Shown here piece after piece: positions 4,025 to 36,377 of a DNA stretch of 36,377 bases. The notes beneath the pieces were generated by a model. That model searched no databases, was not told where the DNA came from, and saw only the letters and a program-made list of their open reading frames with translations. Both the position numbers and the translations under genes were made by a program. The first letter of the stretch is position 1. Each line of letters begins with the position of its first letter. Source of the stretch: Terriglobia bacterium (GTDB lineage: Bacteria; Acidobacteriota; Terriglobia; Terriglobales; Acidobacteriaceae); contig JAIQFW010000014.1 in assembly GCA_020073105.1 (NCBI GenBank), positions 1 through 36,377 of the forward strand, read 5' to 3'.

Positions 4025-4075
4025 GCAGACCCTAGCGCCAGCATTCCGGCTGCGACGGGAGCAACTTAGGGCTGC
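4025..4075. terminator. Weak hairpin between convergent genes
   Basis: GCAG-a-CCCTA (4025-4034) can pair with TAGGGCTGC (4067-4075) with one bulged A. It overlaps the stop of the minus-strand gene. There is no T-tract on either side and the loop is large, so this is only a possible bidirectional terminator. Confidence 0.22.
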
Positions 4076-6117
4076 ACTCCTTTTCCTATGAGTTGGACAT
4101 TTTGTGGGCTGCCGGCTGCGTTGTCAGTGACCAGGAGAAATCCCACGCGCGGCCCCACGTCCAACGGCGTAAAGGTGACCTTAACCGAGCAAAGAGCACC
4201 AGGTGCGAGAGTGCTCGGACAATTGTTGGTTTCAGCATACTCCCCGGCATTCAGGCCGACGATAGCAATGGTGCTAAGTTTCAGGGTCGCGTTCCCGCTG
4301 TTGATCACCTTCACCGTTCTGGTCGAGCTGGTGGTGCCGACGGCTTGTTTCGGAAACGTAAAGCATGGCGCCGAGAACGATAACCGCGGTGCCGGTGGCG
4401 GCGAACCCAGAAGCCCGAATACGTCAAGTTGGTTCTGTGTCCCGACGTAGACTTTCCCGTTGGCCACGGTCGGCACTACGAACTTACTGGCACAGCCGCC
4501 CTGGTCGCGCAGGGTATTATCGGCGCTACTGTAAAGCATCTTGGAAACATCGGTGGCATCATAGGCGAACAGAATGGCCGGAAACTGGCCGGGTCGAATC
4601 CCCAGAGATTCTTGCCGCTCAAGGGCCCAGACGATGCCATTGCTGTTGCCATTCGACGAAACCGTGGGAGTCGCGCCGATAGGGAGAAGGTTCGTGCTCT
4701 GTGAGACCGGCGTGGTGGAAAGTTGGCCATTGGTCAGCGTGTACATACTCAAGTAGTCGCCCACGCCACCCCAGTTTGTGACCCCGGAGTAATAGATGGC
4801 GGCTTGCGTTCCGACCTGCCAATAGGCGGGTGAGCTCCAATAGCCAGCCGGTGCTCCGGTGATCTCCTGAATAACGTTGTCGGCATTGGGGTTGTATTTA
4901 CCCATGTTATTTCGGTCTAGCAGGTAGACTGAGGCACCCGGCTCATTGCAATAGTGGCCACCCTTGCCCGAGGTAATGACTTCATCCGGGTGGAGGCCGG
5001 GCTGTGTGGGCAATACCAACGGACCGGAGGAGGAAAGATCGTAATCGAACGACACGCGGCAGGCCTGGTCCATGGGAGTAAAATAATCCAGCACGTTCAG
5101 GTTGGGATCTAATTTCAGCAGCGTGTCACCGTAATCAAGCCCACCGGAGTCGGCGTCGAACATCCCATCCCCCGTGGAAACATAGATGTTTCCAGAACTG
5201 TCGGCGGCCAGACCATTGCCGCTTTGCCAGAATCCGCCGCGAGCAGCATAGGGCGTAGAGATGAAGATGGCAGTCTGTTCCAAGGTCCTCGCATCGTAAG
5301 CCATCAACCAGCCGTGCAGAGATCCAGCCCATCCTATATAAACCTTGCCGTTCGCCAGGAGCAGGCCGACGCGCTGTGTGTCAGACAAGGAATTGAAAGT
5401 AATGACCCCGCCATCTCCGCCGAGACCCCCGCCGGAGACACTGCCCTCGATCAGCACCGGGCCACCGAACTTCTCGACGCCGGTGGCGATGTCCAAGGCA
5501 TGAAGATGCTGATAACCTTTGCTGGTATTGATGTCGAAAGTCCGAGCGACCATGTACATCGTGTTGGTGGTTGGATCAATGACGGGAGTCCCCGTGATTC
5601 CGTAGAAGGGGTAGACGCTGCAGCTGATGTCGGTTTGGCTGCCGTCAGTCCCGCAGGGGACGGGATAGATCCCGTGCGCCACATCGATGAAACTGTCCTG
5701 CCAAAGCGGAGTGGCGCTCCTCCCGTCGGCATCGAAGGCATACACGGTGTCCATTTGTGTAGTGACATAAACCACATTGTGTTTGCCTTTTCCGGGGATA
5801 TTCACACCGTATACGTAGAGCGGCTGGGCATAAATGTGACCGTCCACAGAATAGGAACCAAGCCTGCCGAACAAACTGGACGTAACGTTTTGCGGATTCA
5901 GAACCTTCTCGTAACGGTTCTGGCCAGTCCGGCCGTTGTCATAGCGATTTGTAAACACGCCGATTGAGTTTTGTGACAGTGCCGGTGTGACCACCGCAAC
6001 GACGAGGAACAGTGTCCGAGCAGTTATCGCGCGCAAACGGGAATTGCCCATGAATTTAGAACCTCTGAACCGGGATTGGCGGAGGCAGAGGGGACTCCTT
6101 CGGATATGAAGTGCCAT
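4066..6117 (-). CDS. Secreted PQQ-like beta-propeller protein with ASPM/SPD-2/Hydin-type C-terminal domain
   Basis: The 683-residue product starts at ATG 6117, which has GGAGG 5 nt upstream (6123-6127). A start at 6051 would give a more typical signal peptide (MGNSRLRAITARTLFLVV) but has only AGAGG 10 nt upstream. After a hydrophobic export segment comes a propeller with recurrent strands such as VVYVTTQMDTVYAFDADG and VANGKVYVGTQNQLDVFG. Residues 573-683 form an immunoglobulin-like module (NSGNATLKLSTIAI, TFTPLDVGPRVGFL) of the ASPM/SPD-2/Hydin type, common at the ends of secreted acidobacterial proteins. The propeller core matches those at 32617 and 34563, which end in a different tail. The role may be adhesion, scaffolding or an enzyme; no catalytic site is recognised. 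Confidence 0.82.
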   Translation of the reverse strand: MALHIRRSPLCLRQSRFRGSKFMGNSRLRAITARTLFLVVAVVTPALSQNSIGVFTNRYDNGRTGQNRYEKVLNPQNVTSSLFGRLGSYSVDGHIYAQPLYVYGVNIPGKGKHNVVYVTTQMDTVYAFDADGRSATPLWQDSFIDVAHGIYPVPCGTDGSQTDISCSVYPFYGITGTPVIDPTTNTMYMVARTFDINTSKGYQHLHALDIATGVEKFGGPVLIEGSVSGGGLGGDGGVITFNSLSDTQRVGLLLANGKVYIGWAGSLHGWLMAYDARTLEQTAIFISTPYAARGGFWQSGNGLAADSSGNIYVSTGDGMFDADSGGLDYGDTLLKLDPNLNVLDYFTPMDQACRVSFDYDLSSSGPLVLPTQPGLHPDEVITSGKGGHYCNEPGASVYLLDRNNMGKYNPNADNVIQEITGAPAGYWSSPAYWQVGTQAAIYYSGVTNWGGVGDYLSMYTLTNGQLSTTPVSQSTNLLPIGATPTVSSNGNSNGIVWALERQESLGIRPGQFPAILFAYDATDVSKMLYSSADNTLRDQGGCASKFVVPTVANGKVYVGTQNQLDVFGLLGSPPPAPRLSFSAPCFTFPKQAVGTTSSTRTVKVINSGNATLKLSTIAIVGLNAGEYAETNNCPSTLAPGALCSVKVTFTPLDVGPRVGFLLVTDNAAGSPQNVQLIGKGVQP

Positions 6118-6237
6118 TCTTTCCTCCAAAATCGGCGCCGTCAAGATGCAGGGGAAGTGCCATTGTGTGCAAGCCAGTACACCTCCGGCTGCGCGTCAGC
6201 TCTTGCCTTTGCTAGTCAAGTCGCACCCCACAGGCGA

Positions 6238-7731
6238 CTACTTTTTTCTTGCTTGGCCGAGCGTCAGGCCGTAAACCGTCCCGTCCTTCGAGCCGAAGTA
6301 CACGGCGCCGTTGGAAATAGCTACTCCACCCAAAAGAGGAGATCCGACGGCGATTGTGTTCAGAAGATTGCCGTTGTAATCGGCCGCGTAGAAGTTACCA
6401 TCGCTGCCACCGACCAAGACAATGTCTGAGATCACCGCGGGCGCTCCCAGGAGCGCTTGCGCGGACAGCGGGGTTGACTTCCTCAAGGCCACGGGCGCGT
6501 AGCCGAGTTGCTCGTAGAGCCACAAACCTCCGGCGGATCCCGGAATGTAGATGATGTTGTTGTAATTGATGATTTTGTGACCCACGCTGTCACAGCTCTG
6601 TGTGAGTTGCGCGGGCAATAAACCCGGGGTCGCAATAAATCCCAGGGTCTGGGCGAAGTTCTGTTGAGGGTTGCCTATCCAACCATTGGCACTCCGCTGC
6701 AAGGTAAAGAGGTACCCGTTCTTGCTAGGTTCAGTCAGCCAATACTGCAGAGGACGCGTTCCGGAAGGGACGCACTGATTGACGGTTCCCGAGAAATGCA
6801 AAACCGGCGACGCGCCGAAGTCCTTATCATTAACGTCATCCGCAATGGCTTGGAAGTAGCTGAGTAGCTTGCCGGTGCTTGCACTCAGGGCCAGAATGCT
6901 ATCGGGATACAATCCGGCGTTTTGGGTGGGAGGGGTGCAGGTGCTTCCGGGGTTGCCGGTGCCTGCGTACACAATGCCGTTCACGTCGTCAATGGCCAAG
7001 GATGACCAGATGGAACCGCCCACACAGATACCGCCGCCAGGACAGGTACTTTGATCAATGGTATTAAAGGTCCAGACCAGTTGTCCGGTGAATTCGTCGT
7101 AGGCGTTGACCGATCCACCCGGCAAGCAGGGGTTGTCGCCGTGCGAGGATACGCCGACAAATACCATCCCGTTGTAGACGGCGGGTGAAGACCAGACTTC
7201 GTAGCCAGCGAGACTGTCACCGGCCTGCGCCTTCCACACCAACTGCCCGGTGAGGGCATTCAGGGCGTAGAGATACCCGCTGTAGGAACCAAAGTAGACC
7301 ATCTTGTTCGCAACATCGACGGCCGGGGAAGAGCCAATTCTGCACCAGGGAGCCTGTCCGTTGCATCGGCCACCGACATAATCTACGGTAAACGTCCACA
7401 GCTTCTGCCCCGTGGTTGCATCCAGAGCGTAGAAGACACCCGTCCACGAACCGATGAACAAGATATGCTGGCCGCTAAAAGTGGCTACGGCCGGAGTGGT
7501 AGAAATTTCCCCGCCGGTCTGGAAGGTCCACTTGGTCTGCAATGATTTCACATTACTTGAGTTGATGGAAAATTCGGCGCTATGAGCACTATTACTCAGA
7601 TCTCTACCAAATTTTAGCCAGTCTTCGGCGACAGCTTGGGGCATTGACAAGGTCAATCCGGAAAGCAAGCCAGCGCAAGCCAGCACCATCCGAGCCATCT
7701 TTAGGTTTAGACCAGAATGACCACGCTGCAT
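6238..7731 (-). CDS. Secreted PQQ-type beta-propeller (quinoprotein-like) protein
   Basis: The 497-residue product starts at ATG 7731, which has GGAGG 5 nt upstream (7737-7741). The signal peptide ends near SMPQAVAED. The mature N-terminus has the pattern of quinoprotein dehydrogenases (DWLKFGRDLSNSAHS, then NVKSLQTKWTFQTGGE). Several W-motif-like blades follow (YALDATTGQKLWTF, YALNALTGQLVWKA, NAYDEFTGQLVWTF). No CxxCH heme motif is present, so it is not a quinohemoprotein. It may be a PQQ dehydrogenase related to polyvinyl-alcohol dehydrogenases or a non-catalytic propeller. It is 120 bp upstream of the other propeller gene on the same strand, so the two may be co-transcribed. Confidence 0.82.
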   Translation of the reverse strand: MQRGHSGLNLKMARMVLACAGLLSGLTLSMPQAVAEDWLKFGRDLSNSAHSAEFSINSSNVKSLQTKWTFQTGGEISTTPAVATFSGQHILFIGSWTGVFYALDATTGQKLWTFTVDYVGGRCNGQAPWCRIGSSPAVDVANKMVYFGSYSGYLYALNALTGQLVWKAQAGDSLAGYEVWSSPAVYNGMVFVGVSSHGDNPCLPGGSVNAYDEFTGQLVWTFNTIDQSTCPGGGICVGGSIWSSLAIDDVNGIVYAGTGNPGSTCTPPTQNAGLYPDSILALSASTGKLLSYFQAIADDVNDKDFGASPVLHFSGTVNQCVPSGTRPLQYWLTEPSKNGYLFTLQRSANGWIGNPQQNFAQTLGFIATPGLLPAQLTQSCDSVGHKIINYNNIIYIPGSAGGLWLYEQLGYAPVALRKSTPLSAQALLGAPAVISDIVLVGGSDGNFYAADYNGNLLNTIAVGSPLLGGVAISNGAVYFGSKDGTVYGLTLGQARKK

Positions 7732-8153
7732 TGATTCCTCCGTGCCAGTTTGCCCGGCGCCGTTACAACTTTCGTTTACGACAGTGCACAGACGCAGGGC
7801 TTTGCTTGTCGTGCAAACACCCAAAAAACGCGGGAAGTCAGGCTTGATAACACAAGAGAACCGCAGCGAACAAACAGCGAATCCATGGCGCCGTCCCTCT
7901 CCTCACCAGGGAGTCGGGCAGCCCAAGCGTGTCAACAGACCTGGACAAACATTTTGTCCGGCAACTGCCCAAACGTCAAGATACGAAAGCCTCCAATCCT
8001 ATGAGAAGTAATGCTCTATCGCTTGCCGCACACACGCGACGTGATTCCAGGGGCAGACCGGGTCGTGTTTTCGATGGTTCTGGCGGGAAGAGCGGATTCG
8101 GGCCCCATGCTAGGATTCCTCTGATCCCTAATGCGTAGTGAGGAGCGTTGATA
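7732..8153. other. Divergent intergenic region (422 bp)
   Basis: This separates the minus-strand propeller gene from the plus-strand isomerase gene and must hold both promoters. Apart from the short palindrome at 7943-7959 I see no RNA gene, known riboswitch or convincing small gene. Short open frames here lack ribosome binding sites and family resemblance. Confidence 0.5.
7943..7959. promoter_or_regulatory. Perfect 7-3-7 palindrome, operator-like
   Basis: GGACAAA-CAT-TTTGTCC is a perfect dyad with 7-bp arms and a 3-bp centre, in the middle of the divergent intergenic region. It has the size of a dimeric repressor site. No regulator gene is nearby and I did not see a second copy in the window. 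Confidence 0.35.
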
Positions 8154-10281: not shown

Positions 10282-12075
10282 CTAGCAGCCCGATCCCTTC
10301 TTGCAAACAAAAACGCGAGTCGCCCACCTACACCCGCTAATGTTTGTACCAACGCAGTTGCTGACCTGGTCGCCTTTCATGTACTCATTCGCGGCCCAGA
10401 AAGTGAGGTCGTCATTGGGATCTGAGGATACGCTCACGTACTCGCCCCAGAAGCCGTCGGTCTCGTCCTGCCCGCTGCTGCCGCTGTTGGAGAGAATCGG
10501 CACCGGCTGGCCCGCCCTCCCGCTGCTACCCACGGTTAGAAAAAACGGCGATGGGTCGTAGTTGAAGGCGCTGCCGGAACTGGTATTACCGGTCACCGTT
10601 AAGGTGACGCCAAGATTACCGTTCTTGTCCATCGCCACACTCGGTAGCGACACGAAGTAGTGGTATGTGGTGTCCTGAAGATCTCCTTTGAGAACTATCG
10701 TAGGATTGGTTCCGGCGGCGATGACATAGTAGTGGATCCCAGTACGCAGGGTGCTGGCATTTTCCTGCACGGTGTGGGCCACAGCAAGATACTCTCCATG
10801 GACCGGCCCTACCGTCAGGTAGCGGTAAGCCAAGCGATGCATGAGCCGGTCGCCAACACTGTCGCTGAATCCCCCGTAGGGTTGCTGGATGCAGACAGTA
10901 TTGAAGGGATGACCTGGGTTATAGCAGCCAGGCGTGAAGGGAGCATTCAAGGGGATGAAGGTGGGTCCCGCGCCGCTTGTAAACCCGGACCAGGTCCAGA
11001 ACGCCAACTGATTCGAGGTGCAGGGCAGCTGAGTGCACTGGTCGTTGGTTCCCGGGTTACTGGGATTCACCTGCGCGAGAAAGTACTCTCCGGCGGTATT
11101 GCCGGGAATGGCGTTGCCGCCTTCGAAGTCGGCCGGCAATGGGCTGTGGATCAAACTAATGTCCTTCGCCGGGGTCACGTAACTCGGGATGTAGGTGTAG
11201 CAAACCGGAGGCATGGACGAGAGCCCGGCAATGATGTTGGCCTTGTCGAACTTGCAGACTTCAAATCCAACGATATTGAAATTCTGCGCCTGGTCTTCGA
11301 GGTCGAATGAAACATAGAATCCGTCAGACCAGCTTCCGAACCGAGCATAATCCGGGAAATAAGGTTTCCCGTTGTTGGGATTGATCGGGATTGCCGGGTT
11401 CAAGTTGTAGGCGTAGGTATTCCAGTAGCTTTGGCCGCCAGAGCCTTGCAGGTTGTTCGCGGGCACACCACCTACTGACGCGCTGACGCCAATGCAGTAA
11501 TAGTAGGTGCCAGTGCCACCCGGATTGAAAATGTTGGCAAGTACAAACACGCCATCGATTCGGTCGTAGGTAGCAATGCCATCGAGGGAAGCACTGGCGC
11601 AGTAGTTCTTTCCACCCGGGGAAAACAGAGTTGTTAGGGCCTGGGGGCTCGCGCCGCTGTTGGCCTGCTTGCTGAAAATTCCGTTACCGGTCTTTCTATC
11701 GAAGGCTTGCACGTAACCGCCGGCAAACTGCAAATATTGGCCCACACCACCGCCATTGGTCGGACCGATCCCGCCATTGGGGTCCGGTTGAGATCGCGGC
11801 AAGCCGGGAATCGCCGCGATGGTGACGGCATCGAGACCGGCAAACGATTTGGTCCACGACCCCGTCTGAGGGGACGAAGTCGAGAAGCCTATGTGCGAGG
11901 TCCCTCCCGGACAGGTGCTCTGGCTGTTGTTCCCCGCGCACCAAGCCTGGAAAGGCGGAGCCGGAGCCGGGCAGGTTCCTGTGGGCGGGCTGGCACTGCA
12001 GTTGTTCTGGGCGAACGAGCTGAGGCTTACCAGCGCGAGCAGCGCCGGTATCAATGCGTAGTTTCTAATCTTCAT
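10282..12075 (-). CDS. Secreted cysteine-rich protein, probable beta-propeller, copy 1 of tandem pair
   Basis: The 597-residue product begins with a signal peptide (MKIRNYALIPALLALVSLSS, cleavage near SFAQ). The mature N-terminus is Cys/Pro-rich (NNCSASPPTGTCPAPAPP). The body has QPDPNGGIGPTN, DGIATYDRIDGVFVLANIF, SVGDRLMHRLAYRY, SVAMDKNGNLG and WGEYVSVSSDPNDDLTFWA, ending CRWATRVFVCKKGSGC. These blocks recur in large secreted proteins that I remember only as hypothetical, with a propeller-like rhythm. I cannot name a function. The gene at 12435-14231 is a paralogue, about two thirds identical by eye. The start is chosen at the signal peptide, with an AGGA element 9-10 nt upstream. The frame stays open 145 codons further upstream, across the intergenic DNA and into the 3' end of copy 2, which is probably chance. 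Confidence 0.8.
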   Translation of the reverse strand: MKIRNYALIPALLALVSLSSFAQNNCSASPPTGTCPAPAPPFQAWCAGNNSQSTCPGGTSHIGFSTSSPQTGSWTKSFAGLDAVTIAAIPGLPRSQPDPNGGIGPTNGGGVGQYLQFAGGYVQAFDRKTGNGIFSKQANSGASPQALTTLFSPGGKNYCASASLDGIATYDRIDGVFVLANIFNPGGTGTYYYCIGVSASVGGVPANNLQGSGGQSYWNTYAYNLNPAIPINPNNGKPYFPDYARFGSWSDGFYVSFDLEDQAQNFNIVGFEVCKFDKANIIAGLSSMPPVCYTYIPSYVTPAKDISLIHSPLPADFEGGNAIPGNTAGEYFLAQVNPSNPGTNDQCTQLPCTSNQLAFWTWSGFTSGAGPTFIPLNAPFTPGCYNPGHPFNTVCIQQPYGGFSDSVGDRLMHRLAYRYLTVGPVHGEYLAVAHTVQENASTLRTGIHYYVIAAGTNPTIVLKGDLQDTTYHYFVSLPSVAMDKNGNLGVTLTVTGNTSSGSAFNYDPSPFFLTVGSSGRAGQPVPILSNSGSSGQDETDGFWGEYVSVSSDPNDDLTFWAANEYMKGDQVSNCVGTNISGCRWATRVFVCKKGSGC

Positions 12076-12434
12076 ATCCTGATATCCTGCTCTTCCCACC
12101 GTTACGGTCTTTAGGAGGATGGATCGATCTGGCCGCTCATTGGCCCAGGATGCCAACGCCGAAGTTCCTGCTTGTACCCCGGTTGAAGAAAGGCCATCCC
12201 CCGCCGCTATCCGCTTCCCCACGGCGAACGCAATTCTCTGCATAGTCTGCTGCAAGTTCTTTGCCACTTCCGAGGCTGAGTTGCGTATCGTCGAACTCTT
12301 TGAATTCAACACCTTAGACACAGTTCCAGTAATCCGATGCTCGCTCGAAGTGCAGCCTGCTGCAGCCTCGACGAGAGCCGCTTGCCGTCGCGCAAACCTG
12401 GCACACACCGTCATGCTGCGGCGGGGCCCTTGCT
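12076..12434. other. Intergenic region between the cysteine-rich paralogues (359 bp)
   Basis: This lies downstream of copy 2 and upstream of copy 1, both minus strand. No terminator with a T-tract, RNA gene or known riboswitch is seen. The minus frame of copy 1 has no stop through the whole stretch, but the encoded residues lack a secretion signal and are not shared with copy 2. Confidence 0.45.
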
Positions 12435-14231
12435 CTAGCACCCCGACCCCTTCTGGCAGGTATAGATGCGCGTTGCCCAGGTACAACCTGTGCCGACCTT
12501 CCGCGTGCAATTACTGACTTGATCCCCATTCATATACTGATTGACCGCCCAGAAGGTCAGGTCGTCAAGGGGATCCGACGACACGCTCACGTACTCACCC
12601 CAAAAGTTGTCGGTCCTATCCTGTCCGCTCGCGCCGCTGTTGCTCAAAATCGCGACGGGCTTACCCAAGGTTCCGTTTCGGTTCACCGTTAGGAAGAAGG
12701 GTGAAGGATCGTAGCTAACAGCGCTGCCGCGGCTTGTATTGCCCGTCACCGTGAACGTAATGCCGAGGTTGCCATTCTTGTCCATGGCGACACTCGGCAT
12801 AGACAAAAAGAGGTGAGAGGTTGCGTCCTGAATATCTCCGAGGAGAGCGACCGCAGGGCTGTTTCCGGCGGAGATCAAATAGTAACGAATTCCAGTGCGC
12901 CTGCTCGTAGCGTTCTCTTGGACGGTATGCGCAACCGCGAGATACTCTCCGCTGGTTCCCGACGTCAGATAGCGATAGGCGAGGCGATAATTCAGACGAT
13001 CTCCGAGGCTATCAATAACGCCACCGTAGGGCTCGGGGACGCAGGTCGTGTTGTAAGGACGCTGAGGGTTGTAGCAGCCGGGAGTGAATGGCTTGTCCAG
13101 AAAGCTGATGTAGGCGGGGCCTGCACCGCCGGTAAGTCCGGACCACGTCCAGAATGCCAATTGGGACGAGGTGCAAGGCATCTTCGAGCATTGCTTGTTG
13201 GTGCCCGGGTCGCTGGGATTTACCTGGGCGAGAAAGTATTCGCCCGCAGTGTCCGCGGGAATCGGATTCGCACCTTCAAAGTCAGCGGGCAGGAGCGTAT
13301 GAATCAGACTGCTGCCGGTTCCGCTTGGCCCCGGGACGTAGCTCGGTATGTAGGTGTAGCAAACTGGAGGGTTGGAAGAAAGGCCTGCGATGATGTTGGC
13401 TTTATCGAACTGGCAGACTTCAAATCCCACAATGTTGAAATTCTGGTCCTGGTTCTCGAGGTCCCAGGCTACATAAAACCCATCCGACCAGGCTCCAAAC
13501 CTTTGGTAGTCGGGAAAGTATAAACGTCCAGCCGCGTTACGAGGAATGGCAGGACGCAAATCATAAGCGTACACATTCCAGCGGCTCCGGCCGTTGGCGC
13601 CTTGCAGATTGTTCGCAGGCACGGAACCACTAGGCGCGCTGACTCCGATGCAGTAGTGATACGAATCCGCACCACCGGGATTGAAAATGTTGGCTAAGAC
13701 AAAGACTTGGTCGATTCGATCGTACGTCGCAATGCCGTCCACGGAACCGTTTGCACAGTAACTCTTGCCACCGGCGCCAAACAGACGCGTCAGCAGTTGG
13801 GGGGCGACCGCACCGTTGGGTTTCGCGCTGAGTATACCGTTGCCGGTCGCCCGATCGAAAGCCTGTATGTAGTTTGCGGAAAATTCCAAGTACTGACCTG
13901 TGCCATTGCCGTCCGTCGGCCCTACGGCGCCATTGGGGTCCGGTTGTGGTTTAGGAAGACCCGGGGCGTTCAAAATACTGCTGGCGTCCAAACCTTCGAA
14001 CTGATCGACCCACGATCCCGGCGCAGGTGTTGACGTGGCGAAACCAACCCATGAGGTTCCTCCAGGACAAGTGCTGTTGGTGTTGTTTCCCGCGCACCAG
14101 GTTTGCGCCGGTGGAGCCGGGGCAGGGCAGGTTCCGGTCGGAGGAGTTGCGCCGCAGTTGTTCTGGGCGGGCGCGGTCAAATCGCCGAACGCCAGTAGTG
14201 CCCCGAGCAACAGACAGTTCCTAATCGTCAT
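12435..14231 (-). CDS. Secreted cysteine-rich protein, probable beta-propeller, copy 2 of tandem pair
   Basis: The 598-residue product starts at ATG 14231 with a signal peptide (MTIRNCLLLGALLAFGD, cleavage near APAQ). It is collinear with the previous gene over the whole length: the same NNC...PPTGTCPAPAPP start, QPDPNGAVGPTDG, DGIATYDRIDQVFVLANIF, CYTYIPSYV, SLGDRLNYRLAYRYL, WGEYVSVSSDP, and the same cysteine-bounded end (CTWATRIYTCQKGSGC). The conserved cysteine positions suggest several disulfides and an extracytoplasmic location. Function is unknown. The Shine-Dalgarno sequence is weak at the chosen start. The 266 bp upstream (14232-14497) hold its leader; I see no clear promoter there. 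Confidence 0.8.
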   Translation of the reverse strand: MTIRNCLLLGALLAFGDLTAPAQNNCGATPPTGTCPAPAPPAQTWCAGNNTNSTCPGGTSWVGFATSTPAPGSWVDQFEGLDASSILNAPGLPKPQPDPNGAVGPTDGNGTGQYLEFSANYIQAFDRATGNGILSAKPNGAVAPQLLTRLFGAGGKSYCANGSVDGIATYDRIDQVFVLANIFNPGGADSYHYCIGVSAPSGSVPANNLQGANGRSRWNVYAYDLRPAIPRNAAGRLYFPDYQRFGAWSDGFYVAWDLENQDQNFNIVGFEVCQFDKANIIAGLSSNPPVCYTYIPSYVPGPSGTGSSLIHTLLPADFEGANPIPADTAGEYFLAQVNPSDPGTNKQCSKMPCTSSQLAFWTWSGLTGGAGPAYISFLDKPFTPGCYNPQRPYNTTCVPEPYGGVIDSLGDRLNYRLAYRYLTSGTSGEYLAVAHTVQENATSRRTGIRYYLISAGNSPAVALLGDIQDATSHLFLSMPSVAMDKNGNLGITFTVTGNTSRGSAVSYDPSPFFLTVNRNGTLGKPVAILSNSGASGQDRTDNFWGEYVSVSSDPLDDLTFWAVNQYMNGDQVSNCTRKVGTGCTWATRIYTCQKGSGC

Positions 14232-14497
14232 GGTTCTTGTGCTCTTGGCCACAGTTTCTCGAGACCAACACCGAGGTATCGAAAGAGCATGCCTGGTTAT
14301 CACTGGGCTGAGCTGGTAACCTCCCCGCAGTCGTTGAGATGTCTCGGCAAGGAATTCAGGGAGAGTCTGCTAGAACGGTTAGCCGCTAAGCCCAACAGCC
14401 TAAACCACCATATCGAGGCCCGGAGAGTGATGCTAGAGGAAGAAAGGCGAGGAGAAGAAAGACTCTAACAATCGGAACCACCCCGGGAACGGCGCCT

Positions 14498-22980: not shown

Positions 22981-24420
22981 TTATTTCATTTCCAACAAGA
23001 CCGGCGTTTGCCCTAGAGAGAGGGGACCCTTCGTCTTCAAGTCGGTCGTGCTTCCGTCCAGGTTGCGCGCGATCACATATTGCCGTTCCGGGGTGTAAGT
23101 CGCTTTATCTCCTCTGCCGTCGTACCAGACAAAACGACCATGATAGCTGCCGTCACTCTTGGTGAAGTCGCAGCCCCAGACCCGCCCGCCTGCCTGCCGC
23201 TGCGCGGTGCAACTCTTGTCGAACACAGCGCCCAGCAGCCAGGTGCGGGCCCGCTCGTAGATGGAGGCGAGCGGACAAAGATATCCTGGCTGCCCGTCGC
23301 GATTGGGGATCGTGCAGGCGTCGATTTTTTCCCGGGACCACATATTGGCCTTGGGGTAGAGGTCCCACCCGAAGAAAATGTAGGCCTTGGTTCCCTCGGC
23401 GGCACGCAGAATCATGGAGCGTGCGAACCAGGCAGCCTGGGCGTCCCAATCGAGGGCACCGCTGGCAGTGCGAAGAGAAAGTCGGCCGGGCCACGCGTCC
23501 TCGGTATCGTAGAAGGGTTTGCCGCGGGTGCTGGGATGTTTGTCGGCGATTTCGCGCAACACCCGAACCAGCTCCACAATCTTTTCCGGGTGCCAATAGC
23601 CGTGATAGCTGACGGCGTCCACAACGCTGGGTCCGTATTTATCCAGCGCAGTGAAATAGCCCTCGGTCCATGACTGGAATTGCGCCGAGCCTGGCGGTGT
23701 GCAGTAGCAGGTGTTTGCCCCCAAAACGATGGCATCGGGATTGACCCGCTTCACTGCGTCGCGAAAATCCTTGGTCATCCTTGCGAACTGCTTGAAGGTG
23801 AAGTGGTCGGGATTGGCGAAACGGATGTTGGGGGCCTCATTCCACATTTCCCAATACTTGATTTTCTTGCCGTAGCGCGTCGCCACAGCGGTGACAAAGT
23901 CCTTGAAGAGCTTGTCCGATCCATCTCCTTCCCCGCTTCCGACCACCGCATCTACGTCGTAAGGCGGATCGCAGGAACCAATCACCTGTAAGCGCTTGTG
24001 TTTGTGGGAGCCGCACTCGTCATCAGGGGGCCCGGCACAATTCTTGTCCGGGTTGCCGGCCCCTCGGCAACGCGACCCTCGAGTCGAAGCCCAATCCGGA
24101 ACGGAGTACACGGTGAACATCACATCCACGCCATGGGCGTAGGAATCGTTCACGACTTTATCCAGATTCCCGCCCTTCAGGTTCGTGCCCCAGTGGTAGC
24201 AAGGATCGTTGGGGTCCGGGCCTCCTGGACAGCCTTCCAAGTCGGACCACGCGACGATGTCGCTGACGCTCCGGCGGATGGCGAACGGCACGGTGGGCCA
24301 CGGTTCTCCCTTCGTGTACTTGTTCTGGTGAAGTCCGAAGAAACTCTCCTGGATTTGTGCCGAACATGGCTGGTAACACAAGCACACACTGAGAAAGCAC
24401 ACCACCAGCGCTGCCTTCAT
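22981..24420 (-). CDS. Secreted clan GH-A glycoside hydrolase, paralogue of the gene at the left edge
   Basis: The 479-residue product starts at ATG 24420 with a signal peptide (MKAALVVCFLSVCLCYQPC). The mature N-terminus (GLHQNKYTKGEPWPTVPF) and most of the barrel match the truncated protein at 1-1129. The acid/base glutamate is E195 in KYWEMWNEAPN and the probable nucleophile E307 in FYDTEDAWPG. An insertion rich in cysteine (about residues 115-155) separates the early barrel from the first catalytic strand. The C-terminal beta domain ends in GQTPVLLEMK. The start is preceded by AAGGGGG, a loose Shine-Dalgarno sequence; upstream in-frame codons lack an export signal. Its complete end shows what the edge-truncated paralogue is missing. 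Substrate unknown; possibly GH39-related. Confidence 0.85.
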   Translation of the reverse strand: MKAALVVCFLSVCLCYQPCSAQIQESFFGLHQNKYTKGEPWPTVPFAIRRSVSDIVAWSDLEGCPGGPDPNDPCYHWGTNLKGGNLDKVVNDSYAHGVDVMFTVYSVPDWASTRGSRCRGAGNPDKNCAGPPDDECGSHKHKRLQVIGSCDPPYDVDAVVGSGEGDGSDKLFKDFVTAVATRYGKKIKYWEMWNEAPNIRFANPDHFTFKQFARMTKDFRDAVKRVNPDAIVLGANTCYCTPPGSAQFQSWTEGYFTALDKYGPSVVDAVSYHGYWHPEKIVELVRVLREIADKHPSTRGKPFYDTEDAWPGRLSLRTASGALDWDAQAAWFARSMILRAAEGTKAYIFFGWDLYPKANMWSREKIDACTIPNRDGQPGYLCPLASIYERARTWLLGAVFDKSCTAQRQAGGRVWGCDFTKSDGSYHGRFVWYDGRGDKATYTPERQYVIARNLDGSTTDLKTKGPLSLGQTPVLLEMK

Positions 24421-32192: not shown

Positions 32193-32616
32193 CGTAATCC
32201 CTGCCTCTCCAGTCGGGTTCCGGGCTGGTTGGCCTGCGCCGAAGTCTCAGTACAGTTCTCCAGCGGACGCAACGCCCGGTGCGCGTTTGGTGAAAGTCGC
32301 GTCTAAGACCAGTCTTTGGGGGAGGGAGCCACGTGGCAAGGCCACAACGCTTTGCCGTATGGCGACGGACAGTTTCGCTTCCGCCACCATCTATGTCAAG
32401 GAAAAACGATCATCCTCACCGGTCGTCACCGTGCGAGGCGCGAAAACCAGAGCTTGACAGCCTCGTCCGAGGCATAAGCCTCTCTTCTGTTTGCCAACCC
32501 GGGTGATTCCGTCTTGACTCCCGGAGCGAATCGCAGGACACTAGGGCAGCCGTTCCCCCCCGAACGGCTTGGGATGTCTTCAGAGATCGTCCTAGTGCCC
32601 CAACAAGGTGGAGATC
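32193..32616. other. Divergent intergenic region before the propeller pair (424 bp)
   Basis: This serves the minus-strand tail-fibre-like gene and the plus-strand propeller copy 1. It holds the duplicated promoter at 32514-32542. A second exact TTGACA occurs at 32454-32459, followed directly by the palindrome GCCTCG-TC-CGAGGC (32460-32473), but no -10 is at the right distance. GCCACGTGGC (32328-32337) is a 10-bp palindrome. No gene is called. Confidence 0.45.
32514..32542 (+). promoter_or_regulatory. Candidate promoter of propeller copy 1
   Basis: TTGACT (32514-32519) has 17 bp to GACACT (32537-32542). The -35 matches five of six bases while the -10 is poor. The block around it is almost identical before copy 2 (34427-34455), so conservation rather than consensus quality supports it. 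Confidence 0.4.
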
Positions 32617-34317
32617 ATGAGAATTGGTGCGTTTGCCGGTGTTGCTAGCCTGCTGCGTGGTGCCGTCAGTCTGCTCTTCCTCGTGCCGATGGCGGCAATG
32701 TGCCAGCTGAACGTTGTCACCTATCATTACGACAACTTCCGTACGGGACAAAACCTCCGCGAGGGGACACTCACTCCCGGCAAGGTGAACCAAAACACCT
32801 TTGGCAAGTTGTTTTCGCAACCGGTGGATGGTCAGATCTATGCCCAACCCCTGGAACTGCGGAATGTGCAGGTCCCCGGGAAAGGGCAGCACAACGTAGT
32901 GTACGTGGTCACGGAGCACGACAGCGCATACGCCTTCGATGCTGACAGTAATACCGGGAGCAACGCGAGCCCGCTTTGGCAGGACAGTTTTATTGATCCG
33001 GCGAACGGGATTACACCGATTCCCACTGTAGATACCGACACGCAAGCCATTTACCCGGAGATTGGTATCACCTCGACTCCGGTCATTGATCCCGGGAGCG
33101 GCACGCTGTATGTAGTGGCGGCGACGAAGGAGAGCGGCACCTATGTGCACCGGTTGCACGCGCTCGACGTGGCATCGGGGACGGAGAAATTCGGCGGGCC
33201 GGTGGTGATCCAGGCCACGGTCTCGGGCAACGGTTGGGGCTCGGTGGACGGCAAGATTTCGTTTGACCCGCTGCGCGAGCACCAACGTGCGGCGTTGTTA
33301 CTCTCCCGGGGCGTGGTGTACATCGCATGGGCTAGTCATGGAAAGGAAAAAAGTTACCCATATCACGGCTGGGTGATGGGCTACGACGCTGGGACCCTGG
33401 CACAAGTTGCGGTTTTCAATTCCACACCCAATGGCAAGCAAGGCGGCATCTGGTTAAGCGGTGGCGGCCTAGCAGAGGGTCCTCGTGGAGATTTGTTCAC
33501 TTTGACCGGCAACGGCACCTTCGACGCGGACGATGGTGGGGTCGATTACGGGGACAGCTTCCTCAAGCTGACACCGTCAAAAGGGCTGACGGTTACTGAC
33601 TATTTCACCCCGTTCAATCAGGAAGACTTGTCGAACCAGGATCAGGACTTGGGCTCCGGGGAACCGATGGTGCTGCCTGGGCCTAGCGCGGCCGCACCGC
33701 CACATCTGGCGGTGGGCGCCGGAAAAGAAGGAACCATCTACCTAATCGACCTGTCGCACATGGGAGGGTTCAACGACACTCAAAATCTAAACCTGCAGAC
33801 CATCGAGGACGCCCTGGGCGGGCGCGGAATGCATAACAGTCCTGCCTTTTGGCAGCAGAAACTGTATTTTTGTGCCAGCGCTGATGTGCTGCGAATTTTT
33901 CAGATGAGCGGAGGACTGATTTCCCCCACTCCCATCGCCACCTCCGTTCATGTCTTTCAGACCCCCGGTGCAACGCCGGTGATATCAGCGCGGGGTGCCT
34001 CAAGGGGAATCGTCTGGCTTTTGGAATACACTTCTGGAACTCAACAGGGGGTTGGGGGGCCGGGGGTCCTTTACGCCCTCGACCCAACCACTGCGGCCGA
34101 GCTCTACAACAGTAATCAGGCCGGGAGCCGCGACGTGCCCGGTCTTTCCCTGCATTTCAACACCCCGATGGTGGCCAACGGTAAGGTGTACGTGGGGACA
34201 GCCAACGAGTTAGATGTGTTCGGGCTGCTTTCGCAACCACATACCCAAGCTTTTCCGCCTCACCCGAACGGACTTGCCTCTAAATCGGTTGCACCTTCGC
34301 TCGGAGGCAAGAACTAG
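32617..34317 (+). CDS. Secreted PQQ-like beta-propeller protein, tandem copy 1
   Basis: The 566-residue product starts at ATG 32617 with AAGGTG 6 nt upstream; GTG 32608 is a weaker alternative. A signal peptide (LLRGAVSLLFLVPMAAMCQ) precedes a propeller with blades such as NVVYVVTEHDSAYAFDADS, GSGTLYVVAATKESGTYV and VANGKVYVGTANELDVFGLL. The core matches the protein at 4066-6117, including HYDNFRTGQN against RYDNGRTGQN and LWQDSFID. There is no ASPM/Hydin module; the end is a short Pro/His/Ser-rich tail (HTQAFPPHPNGLASK). No catalytic residues are recognised. A pyrrolo-quinoline-quinone-like fold is likely without evidence of cofactor binding. It is followed by a second copy with about 46 of 566 residues different by eye. 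Confidence 0.85.
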   Translation: MRIGAFAGVASLLRGAVSLLFLVPMAAMCQLNVVTYHYDNFRTGQNLREGTLTPGKVNQNTFGKLFSQPVDGQIYAQPLELRNVQVPGKGQHNVVYVVTEHDSAYAFDADSNTGSNASPLWQDSFIDPANGITPIPTVDTDTQAIYPEIGITSTPVIDPGSGTLYVVAATKESGTYVHRLHALDVASGTEKFGGPVVIQATVSGNGWGSVDGKISFDPLREHQRAALLLSRGVVYIAWASHGKEKSYPYHGWVMGYDAGTLAQVAVFNSTPNGKQGGIWLSGGGLAEGPRGDLFTLTGNGTFDADDGGVDYGDSFLKLTPSKGLTVTDYFTPFNQEDLSNQDQDLGSGEPMVLPGPSAAAPPHLAVGAGKEGTIYLIDLSHMGGFNDTQNLNLQTIEDALGGRGMHNSPAFWQQKLYFCASADVLRIFQMSGGLISPTPIATSVHVFQTPGATPVISARGASRGIVWLLEYTSGTQQGVGGPGVLYALDPTTAAELYNSNQAGSRDVPGLSLHFNTPMVANGKVYVGTANELDVFGLLSQPHTQAFPPHPNGLASKSVAPSLGGKN

Positions 34318-34345
34318 GGACCGACGGGCTACTCCCTATGTTCTT
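34309..34345 (+). terminator. Possible hairpin terminator over the stop codon of copy 1
   Basis: AAGAACTAGGGA (34309-34320) pairs with TCCCTATGTTCTT (34333-34345) with one bulge, a 12-bp stem including the TAG stop. No T-tract follows. The right arm is not kept after copy 2, so it is unique to copy 1. Confidence 0.3.
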
Positions 34346-34426
34346 GACAGGCCAACTGCCTGGGAAAATTCCTTCGGTCCTGATTCCGACCCGCGGCATT
34401 GGCGCCTCTTAGGGGATGAATTCGTC

Positions 34427-34455
34427 TTGACTCCCAGGGCGAATCGCAGGACACT
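34427..34455 (+). promoter_or_regulatory. Candidate promoter of propeller copy 2
   Basis: TTGACT (34427-34432), 17 bp, GACACT (34450-34455), the same arrangement as before copy 1. The downstream leader differs by the extra 33 nt. Confidence 0.4.
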
Positions 34456-34562
34456 AGGGCAGCCGTCCCCCCCGAAGGGCTTGGCATCTCTGAGTTTGAG
34501 TGTGGGCAAGTCTTCAGCGACCTAGCTTCAGAAATCGTCCCAGTGTCCCAAAGGTGAAGATC

Positions 34563-36263
34563 ATGAGAATTGGTGCGTTTGCCGGTGTTGCTAGCCTGCT
34601 GCGTGGTGCCGTCAGTCTGCTCTTCCTCGTGCCGATGGCGGCAATGTGCCAGCTGAATGTTGTCACTTATCATTACGACAACTTCCGCACGGGGCAGAAC
34701 CTCAACGAGGTCACGCTTACTCCCAGCAACGTGAACCAAAACGCCTTTGGCAAATTGTTTTCGCAACCGGTTGATGGTCAGATTTATGCCCAGCCCCTGG
34801 AACTTAGGAATGTGCAGGTCCCCGGGAAAGGGCAGCACAACGTAGTGTACGTGGTCACGGAGCACGACAGCGTATACGCCTTCGATGCTGACAGCAATGC
34901 GGGGGCTAATGCGAGCCCGCTTTGGCAGGACAGTTTCATTGATCCGGCGAACGGGATTACGCCGATTCCCAGTGTAGACGCCGACACGCAAGCCATTTAC
35001 CCGGAGATAGGTACCACCTCAACTCCGGTCATTGATACCGGGAGCGGCACGCTGTATGTAGTGGCAGCGACGAAGGAAAGCGGTACATATGTGCACCGAT
35101 TGCACGCGCTCGACGTGGCATCGGGGATGGAGAAATTCGGCGGGCCGGTGGTGATCCAGGCCACGGTTTCGGGCAACGGTTGGGGCTCGGTGGACGGCAA
35201 GATTTCGTTTGACCCGCTGCACGAACACCAACGTGCGGCGTTGTTACTCTCCCGAGGCGTGGTCTACATCGCATGGGCTACTCATGGAAAGGAATTGACA
35301 TATCCATATCACGGCTGGGTGATGGGCTATGACGCTGGGACTCTGGCACAACTTGCAGTTTTCAATTCCACACCCAATGGCAAGCAAGGCGGCATCTGGT
35401 TAAGCGGTGGCGGCCTGGCAGAGGGTCCTCGGGGAGATTTGTTCACTTTGACCGGCAACGGCACCTTCGACGCCGACGACGGTGGGGTGGACTACGGAGA
35501 GAGTTTCCTCAAGTTGACACCGTCAAAAGGGCTGACGGTTACTGATTATTTTACCCCGTTTAATCAGGCAGACTTGTCTGACCGGGATCGAGATTTGGGC
35601 TCTGGGGAACCGATGGTGCTGAGTGGGCCCAGCGCGGTCGCACCGCCACATCTGGCGGTGGGCGCCGGAAAGGGAGGAACCATCTACCTGGTTGACCTGT
35701 CGCACATGGGAGGGTTTAACGACTCTCAAAATCTAAACCTGCAGACCATCGATAACGCTTTTGGTGGGCACGGAATGTACAACAGTCCAGCCTTTTGGCA
35801 GCAGAAACTGTATTTTTGTGCCAGCATTGATGTGCTGCGAATTTTTCAGATGAGCGGAGGACTGATCTCCCCCACTCCCATCGCCACCTCCGTCCATGCC
35901 TTTCACGCCCCCGGGGCAACGCCGGTGATATCAGCGCGGGGTGCCTCCGGGGGAATCGTTTGGCTTTTGGAATACACTTCTGGAACTCAACAGGGGGTTG
36001 GGGGGCCGGGAATTCTTTACGCCCTCGACCCAACCACTGCGGCCGAGCTCTACGACAGTAATCAGGCCGGGAGCCGCGACGTGCCCGGGCTTTCGCTGCA
36101 CTTCGCCGTCCCGATGGTGGCCAATGGTAAGGTCTACGTGGGGACAGCTAACGAGTTAGATGTGTTCGGGCTGCTTTCACAACCACATACTCAAGCTCTT
36201 CCGCCTCACCCAAACGGACTTGCCTCTAAATTGGCTGCACCTTCGCTCGGAAGCAAGAACTAG
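34563..36263 (+). CDS. Secreted PQQ-like beta-propeller protein, tandem copy 2
   Basis: The 566-residue product starts at ATG 34563 with AAAGGTG upstream; an in-frame start at 34500 would add 21 residues before the signal peptide and is unlikely. It aligns to copy 1 without gaps. The first 95 coding bases, covering the signal peptide, are identical. Differences cluster in a few loops: LNEVTLTPSN for LREGTLTPGK, QADLSDRDRD for QEDLSNQDQD, and IDNAFGGHGMY for IEDALGGRGMH. Long stretches between are unchanged. It keeps the Pro/His-rich tail. Loop-focused change on a conserved propeller suggests altered binding surfaces, though neutral drift is possible. No third copy is visible before the window ends. 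Confidence 0.85.
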   Translation: MRIGAFAGVASLLRGAVSLLFLVPMAAMCQLNVVTYHYDNFRTGQNLNEVTLTPSNVNQNAFGKLFSQPVDGQIYAQPLELRNVQVPGKGQHNVVYVVTEHDSVYAFDADSNAGANASPLWQDSFIDPANGITPIPSVDADTQAIYPEIGTTSTPVIDTGSGTLYVVAATKESGTYVHRLHALDVASGMEKFGGPVVIQATVSGNGWGSVDGKISFDPLHEHQRAALLLSRGVVYIAWATHGKELTYPYHGWVMGYDAGTLAQLAVFNSTPNGKQGGIWLSGGGLAEGPRGDLFTLTGNGTFDADDGGVDYGESFLKLTPSKGLTVTDYFTPFNQADLSDRDRDLGSGEPMVLSGPSAVAPPHLAVGAGKGGTIYLVDLSHMGGFNDSQNLNLQTIDNAFGGHGMYNSPAFWQQKLYFCASIDVLRIFQMSGGLISPTPIATSVHAFHAPGATPVISARGASGGIVWLLEYTSGTQQGVGGPGILYALDPTTAAELYDSNQAGSRDVPGLSLHFAVPMVANGKVYVGTANELDVFGLLSQPHTQALPPHPNGLASKLAAPSLGSKN

Positions 36264-36270
36264 GGACCGA

Positions 36271-36377
36271 TAGATCACTCACAACCCTGCTTGATCGGCC
36301 AAGTGCCGGGAATGCGCCTTGACCGGATGCAATGGCCCAGTGAGAATTAGTGTGCCAGGTACGTCCGTTGCGCTTGT
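36271..36377. other. Right edge of the window, non-coding
   Basis: This is 107 bp after copy 2. Its first part (around 36287-36320) loosely resembles the DNA after copy 1 (34344-34378), so the duplicated segment may extend further. No gene start is seen. Confidence 0.35.

Follow-up and report, generated by a model that had tools for sequence, protein, structure and literature searches.

A lineage-specific tandem duplicate of a secreted, quinoprotein-like propeller gene in an acidobacterial genome

Two closely similar genes for a secreted propeller protein lie head-to-tail on an acidobacterial contig, which raises the question of whether the pair diversifies a binding surface or is an ordinary duplicate of a gene with another role. 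The window analysed here is one whole contig (36,377 nucleotides) of a draft acidobacterial genome of 5.14 Mb in 308 contigs. The features that the argument draws on are as follows.

4066–6144, reverse: divergent homologue (49% identity), extended at its C-terminus by an Ig-like region (ASH/HYDIN matches below threshold)
32501–32616, forward: leader and putative promoter region of copy 1, from alignment (TTGACT at 32514–32519, 17-nt spacer, GACACT at 32537–32542)
32536–32600, forward: inverted repeat bracketing the leader of copy 1 (arms GGACACTAGG and CCTAGTGCCC; inner hairpin AGCCGTTC/GAACGGCT)
32612–32711, forward: 100-nt identical tract in copy 1 (leader end and signal-peptide codons 1–31), a candidate conversion tract
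32617–34317, forward: copy 1, a secreted 566-aa eight-bladed quinoprotein-like propeller (open reading frame, AlphaFold model, matches to PQQ-type propellers)
34414–34562, forward: leader of copy 2, 33 nt longer by alignment, with CTTCAG direct repeats at 34512 and 34526
34558–34657, forward: identical tract in copy 2
34563–36263, forward: copy 2, the gene of copy 1 again (92% nucleotide identity, 46 residue differences, no indel)

The tandem pair and its leaders

Each coding sequence has 566 codons (1701 nt including the stop), starting with ATG at 32617 in copy 1 and at 34563 in copy 2, and their gap-free alignment contains 133 nucleotide differences (92.2% identity). The repeat unit (about 32501–34366 and 34414–36312; 89.5% identity, E 0) comprises the gene, a 5' leader of about 115 nt and a faint, degraded trace 3' of the stop codon, while the sequences 5' of the two units are non-homologous. 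A preliminary description of this DNA had reported two 566-residue secreted propellers in direct tandem with a shared leader, some 46 residue differences without indels, identity over the first 95 coding bases and a 33-nt difference in leader length. The coordinates and alignments bear out each of these: the proteins differ at 46 residues without a gap, the first nucleotide difference is at coding base 96, and it is copy 2 that has the longer leader. That the duplication was direct, recent and included the leader is likewise supported by the repeat-unit alignment and the divergence, and we conclude that the copies are a true tandem duplicate, recent relative to the family.

Such a pair could also arise during assembly if two strain variants were placed one behind the other, and this draft is in 308 contigs, of which the present one terminates 114 nt past copy 2. 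We regard this artefact as very unlikely because a divergence of 8% and leaders that differ by 33 nt are large for strain variants and the regions upstream of the two units are not homologous; both genes are also intact and contiguous. The preliminary description had advised looking for more copies. No third close copy was found elsewhere in the assembly, in which 13 homologous stretches were counted; only two copies are this close, and the next best has at most 60% identity. Since 114 nt separate the stop codon of copy 2 from the contig end, a third copy may still lie downstream. Large groups of paralogues in one acidobacterial genome are also found in Candidatus Solibacter usitatus Ellin6076, where they are described as ancient and divergent (PMC3174227), unlike the recent pair studied here.

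A tree built from 107 proteins of the family pairs the copies as sisters; their stem is long (0.65) and their tips are short (0.032 and 0.056). The nearest proteins outside the genome come from another genus (g7) of the same taxonomic family, which at the cut-off used has one homologue per genome, at 51–61%, mostly 57–61%, identity. Accordingly, the duplication took place within this lineage and is recent on the scale of the family, but with a dS of 0.21 it is not brand new. When residue changes were polarised by the outgroups of genus g7, 13 fell on copy 1 and 14 on copy 2, so neither copy appears to decay. Both the duplication and the later evolution of the copies are ordinary.

In the leaders, the TTGACT-17-GACACT arrangement is aligned 5' of each gene. 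The second hexamer is weak, the arrangement was not among the promoters listed by the promoter scanner, and a promoter at this position is weakly supported. The inverted repeat brackets both leaders, its outer arms being kept in copy 2 at 34449–34458 and 34539–34548, and an extra strong hairpin is present in copy 1 only. Two positions of the outer 3' arm are changed between the copies, with 9 of 10 pairs still kept. Relative to shuffled sequences, the leader folds somewhat better in copy 1 (z −2.3) but no better in copy 2 (z 0.1), and a conserved RNA was rejected. A shared regulon was rejected as well, as the leader sequence is present at these two genes only in the genome. A search of 300 genomes returned a 41-base partial match (G221, E 7e-4) with no gene of the propeller family after it within the stretch examined, which is probably due to chance. 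Either copy 2 gained the 33 nt or copy 1 lost them, possibly through an event between the CTTCAG repeats.

Divergence between the copies

The preliminary description took the differences as a sign of gene conversion or of selection for diversity on exposed loops, as in an adhesion or binding surface, and proposed dN/dS as a check. Comparison of the copies by the Nei-Gojobori method gave a dS of 0.211, a dN of 0.044 and an omega of 0.21, below 1, and no sliding window had an omega reliably above 1. In 24 control pairs of the same family (76–95% identity, from different genomes except L057/L066, which share one assembly), omega was 0.09–0.22, a range that includes the value of the tandem pair. 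As the omega of 0.21 is matched by control pairs, positive selection was rejected. The pattern looks like that of ordinary copies diverging under purifying selection.

According to one reading, positive selection or targeted conversion alters the exposed loops of the propeller and hence what it binds. The residue changes are indeed clustered (p about 0.03–0.04), as the preliminary description had noted. The clustering weakens, however, to p 0.075 once family variability is matched, and several control pairs cluster their changes equally or more strongly. The changes sit at family-variable sites (p 1e-4). That they are confined to loops, as had been stated, is too strong, since in the predicted model coil takes up 28 of the 42 changes within the domain (p 0.036 against a background of 51%), the other 14 being in strand or helix; moreover, the coil fraction reaches 0.62–0.65 in some control pairs. 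The substitution spectrum is transition-rich (94/39) and lacks the adenine specificity of a diversity-generating retroelement, and mutagenesis of that kind was rejected.

What remains is a lean of the changes towards one face of the propeller. The putative pocket-face loops (BC and DA loops) hold 41% of the positions and 22 of the 37 propeller changes; in eight independent control pairs they hold 35% of the changes (p 0.006). The faces were assigned by hand from DSSP strand order after the list of changes was seen. The excess has p values of 0.005–0.08 when the loop limits are shifted by up to 2 residues and of 0.05 when family variability is matched. These loops are likewise enriched in silent codon changes (p 0.035), and nonsynonymous and synonymous changes do not differ significantly in their distribution over the faces (p 0.35). 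Because of the way the faces were assigned, we treat this lean as a mild residual signal that may serve as a lead only. The clustering and the favoured pocket-face loops speak for a diversifying adhesin, but the pairwise omega already refutes the idea in part, the silent changes share the bias, and there are just two copies. We therefore consider a diversifying surface very improbable, and the conserved pocket described below points to a redox-type quinoprotein instead.

The copies are identical over 100 nt at the 5' end. This tract has a p of 0.00035 as a run at the start and of 0.05 as the longest run anywhere, and the control pairs mostly diverge normally, or more, in the signal-peptide region. 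Of the gene conversion suggested in the preliminary description, a 5' event is thus plausible by the first measure and stands at p 0.05 by the second. The tract is most simply read as the result of local gene conversion; strong constraint is the alternative.

Predicted fold and quinoprotein pocket

The AlphaFold model, built with 71 homologues (pLDDT 89.8, pTM 0.89), is an eight-bladed propeller, the blades being counted from the strand list and structural matches. Its best Foldseek matches are quinoprotein alcohol dehydrogenases (E 7e-16), and VIA-align gave Z 30–35 to designed propellers, YxaL and BamB; with L-sorbose dehydrogenase it aligned 389 residues at Z 29.7. The pocket of PQQ dehydrogenases has an Asn and a Glu as metal ligands, a catalytic Asp, a Lys or Arg in contact with the quinone and a stacking Trp. 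The family profile matches the quinohemoprotein alcohol dehydrogenase 1kb0 (E 2e-4), and the alignment places W279 on the pocket Trp, N299 on the GN of the GNG motif, D344 on the NWDY aspartate and K370 on the Lys. Among the 71 homologues, W279 and K370 are conserved in all, D344 in 70 and N299 in 68, and the four residues are unchanged between the copies. E172, a putative metal-ligand Glu matched by position only, is Glu in 51.

The likeness to known enzymes has clear limits. Type II quinohemoprotein alcohol dehydrogenases (1kb0, 1kv9) share the eight blades and the aligned W, GN(G), Asp and Lys with the propeller pair, but identity is about 13%, the alignment is gapped just before D344, and the pair has neither the haem c domain nor the vicinal Cys-Cys pair, its only cysteines being at 29 and 419. 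A vicinal disulphide over PQQ is present in many quinoprotein dehydrogenases but not in all. The quinoprotein L-sorbose dehydrogenase (4mh1) is the longest structural match among those listed, at 15% identity. No Pfam or NCBIfam family exceeded its threshold for the propeller protein. As PF01011 was not reached and the vicinal cysteines are missing, we place the family as a distant relative of the quinoprotein alcohol dehydrogenase superfamily and not as a member.

The same fold is common to propellers without catalytic activity, and a neutrally duplicated structural propeller of the BamB/YxaL type would fit the absent cysteine pair as well as the top VIA-align Z values. YxaL from Bacillus velezensis is secreted, as is the propeller pair; it and BamB have the same propeller fold (Z about 30–32), and neither is known as an enzyme. 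In a scaffold, one would not expect W, N, D and K to stay near-invariant over several phyla at the positions of the quinoprotein pocket, and the longest match among those listed is a dehydrogenase. We thus hold a non-enzymatic propeller to be possible but rather unlikely, and a redox enzyme would seem likelier than an adhesin.

We argue that the locus is best explained, with somewhat better than even probability, as a lineage-specific head-to-tail duplicate under purifying selection whose product resembles a PQQ- and metal-dependent dehydrogenase and whose 5' tract was re-homogenised by conversion. One gene for a secreted propeller was duplicated together with its putative promoter and leader after the split from the sampled relatives. 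The copies have since diverged by about 8% under purifying selection, at about equal rates, and both retain what a working protein needs. The product may be a periplasmic or secreted enzyme, distantly akin to quinoprotein alcohol dehydrogenases, in which W279 would stack on the cofactor and N299 would hold the metal, possibly together with E172; D344 would act as catalytic base and K370 would contact the quinone. Two copies could provide an extra dose and perhaps, through the pocket-face loops, a slightly different substrate range. Gene conversion has probably made the 5' tract identical again. Set against a PQQ enzyme are the lack of a family match, of the cysteine pair and of a haem domain, the fold shared with BamB and YxaL, the incomplete conservation of E172 and the question of cofactor supply. 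The genome carries pqqC over cut-off (2225–2998 of L141, reverse), near a TonB-dependent receptor. A PqqE above cut-off was not found in the genome, and the open reading frames scanned next to pqqC contained no further recognised pqq gene, which leaves it uncertain whether the host makes its own PQQ. Environmental PQQ is taken up by many Gram-negative bacteria that have PQQ-dependent enzymes (PMC12124388).

It is conceivable that neofunctionalisation is under way, with the substrate pockets of two enzyme copies parting and the differing leaders separating their expression. By the assigned topology, the clusters of changes at 336–343 (adjoining D344), 371 (adjoining K370), 397–406 and 515–516 are all in pocket-face loops, and the leaders differ by 33 nt and in their predicted hairpins. 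We consider this doubtful: the faces were assigned by hand from strand order, the entropy-matched p is just 0.05, silent changes show the same bias, and the pocket residues themselves are the same in both copies.

The wider family and other duplicates on the contig

The propeller family is distributed over Acidobacteriota, Verrucomicrobiota, Chloroflexota and others. Its possible value lies in being an uncharacterised family of secreted propellers with quinoprotein pocket residues and no Pfam or NCBIfam match, of which one genome may encode as many as about a dozen. Should its members prove to be PQQ enzymes, current counts would understate how much quinoprotein capacity soil Acidobacteriota and Verrucomicrobiota have. 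We tentatively raise the idea, which we think has a minor chance of being right, that the family is a clade of secreted PQQ- and metal-dependent dehydrogenases and the pair a natural experiment in which the substrate-face loops part and the cofactor site stays fixed. As two close natural variants, the copies could be used for a substrate test.

Elsewhere on the contig, the divergent homologue at 4066–6144 adjoins a canonical PF01011 PQQ-domain protein (6238–7824, reverse), whose profile alignment with the propeller family runs along the same motifs. A dispersed duplicate of a secreted protein gene lies at 84–1060 and 23360–24351 (68% nucleotide identity); the contig start falls inside the former copy, and the latter has no Pfam match. 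A second tandem pair (10282–12510 and 12435–14303, reverse; no Pfam match), with about 69% nucleotide identity over 1.7 kb, is older than the propeller pair.
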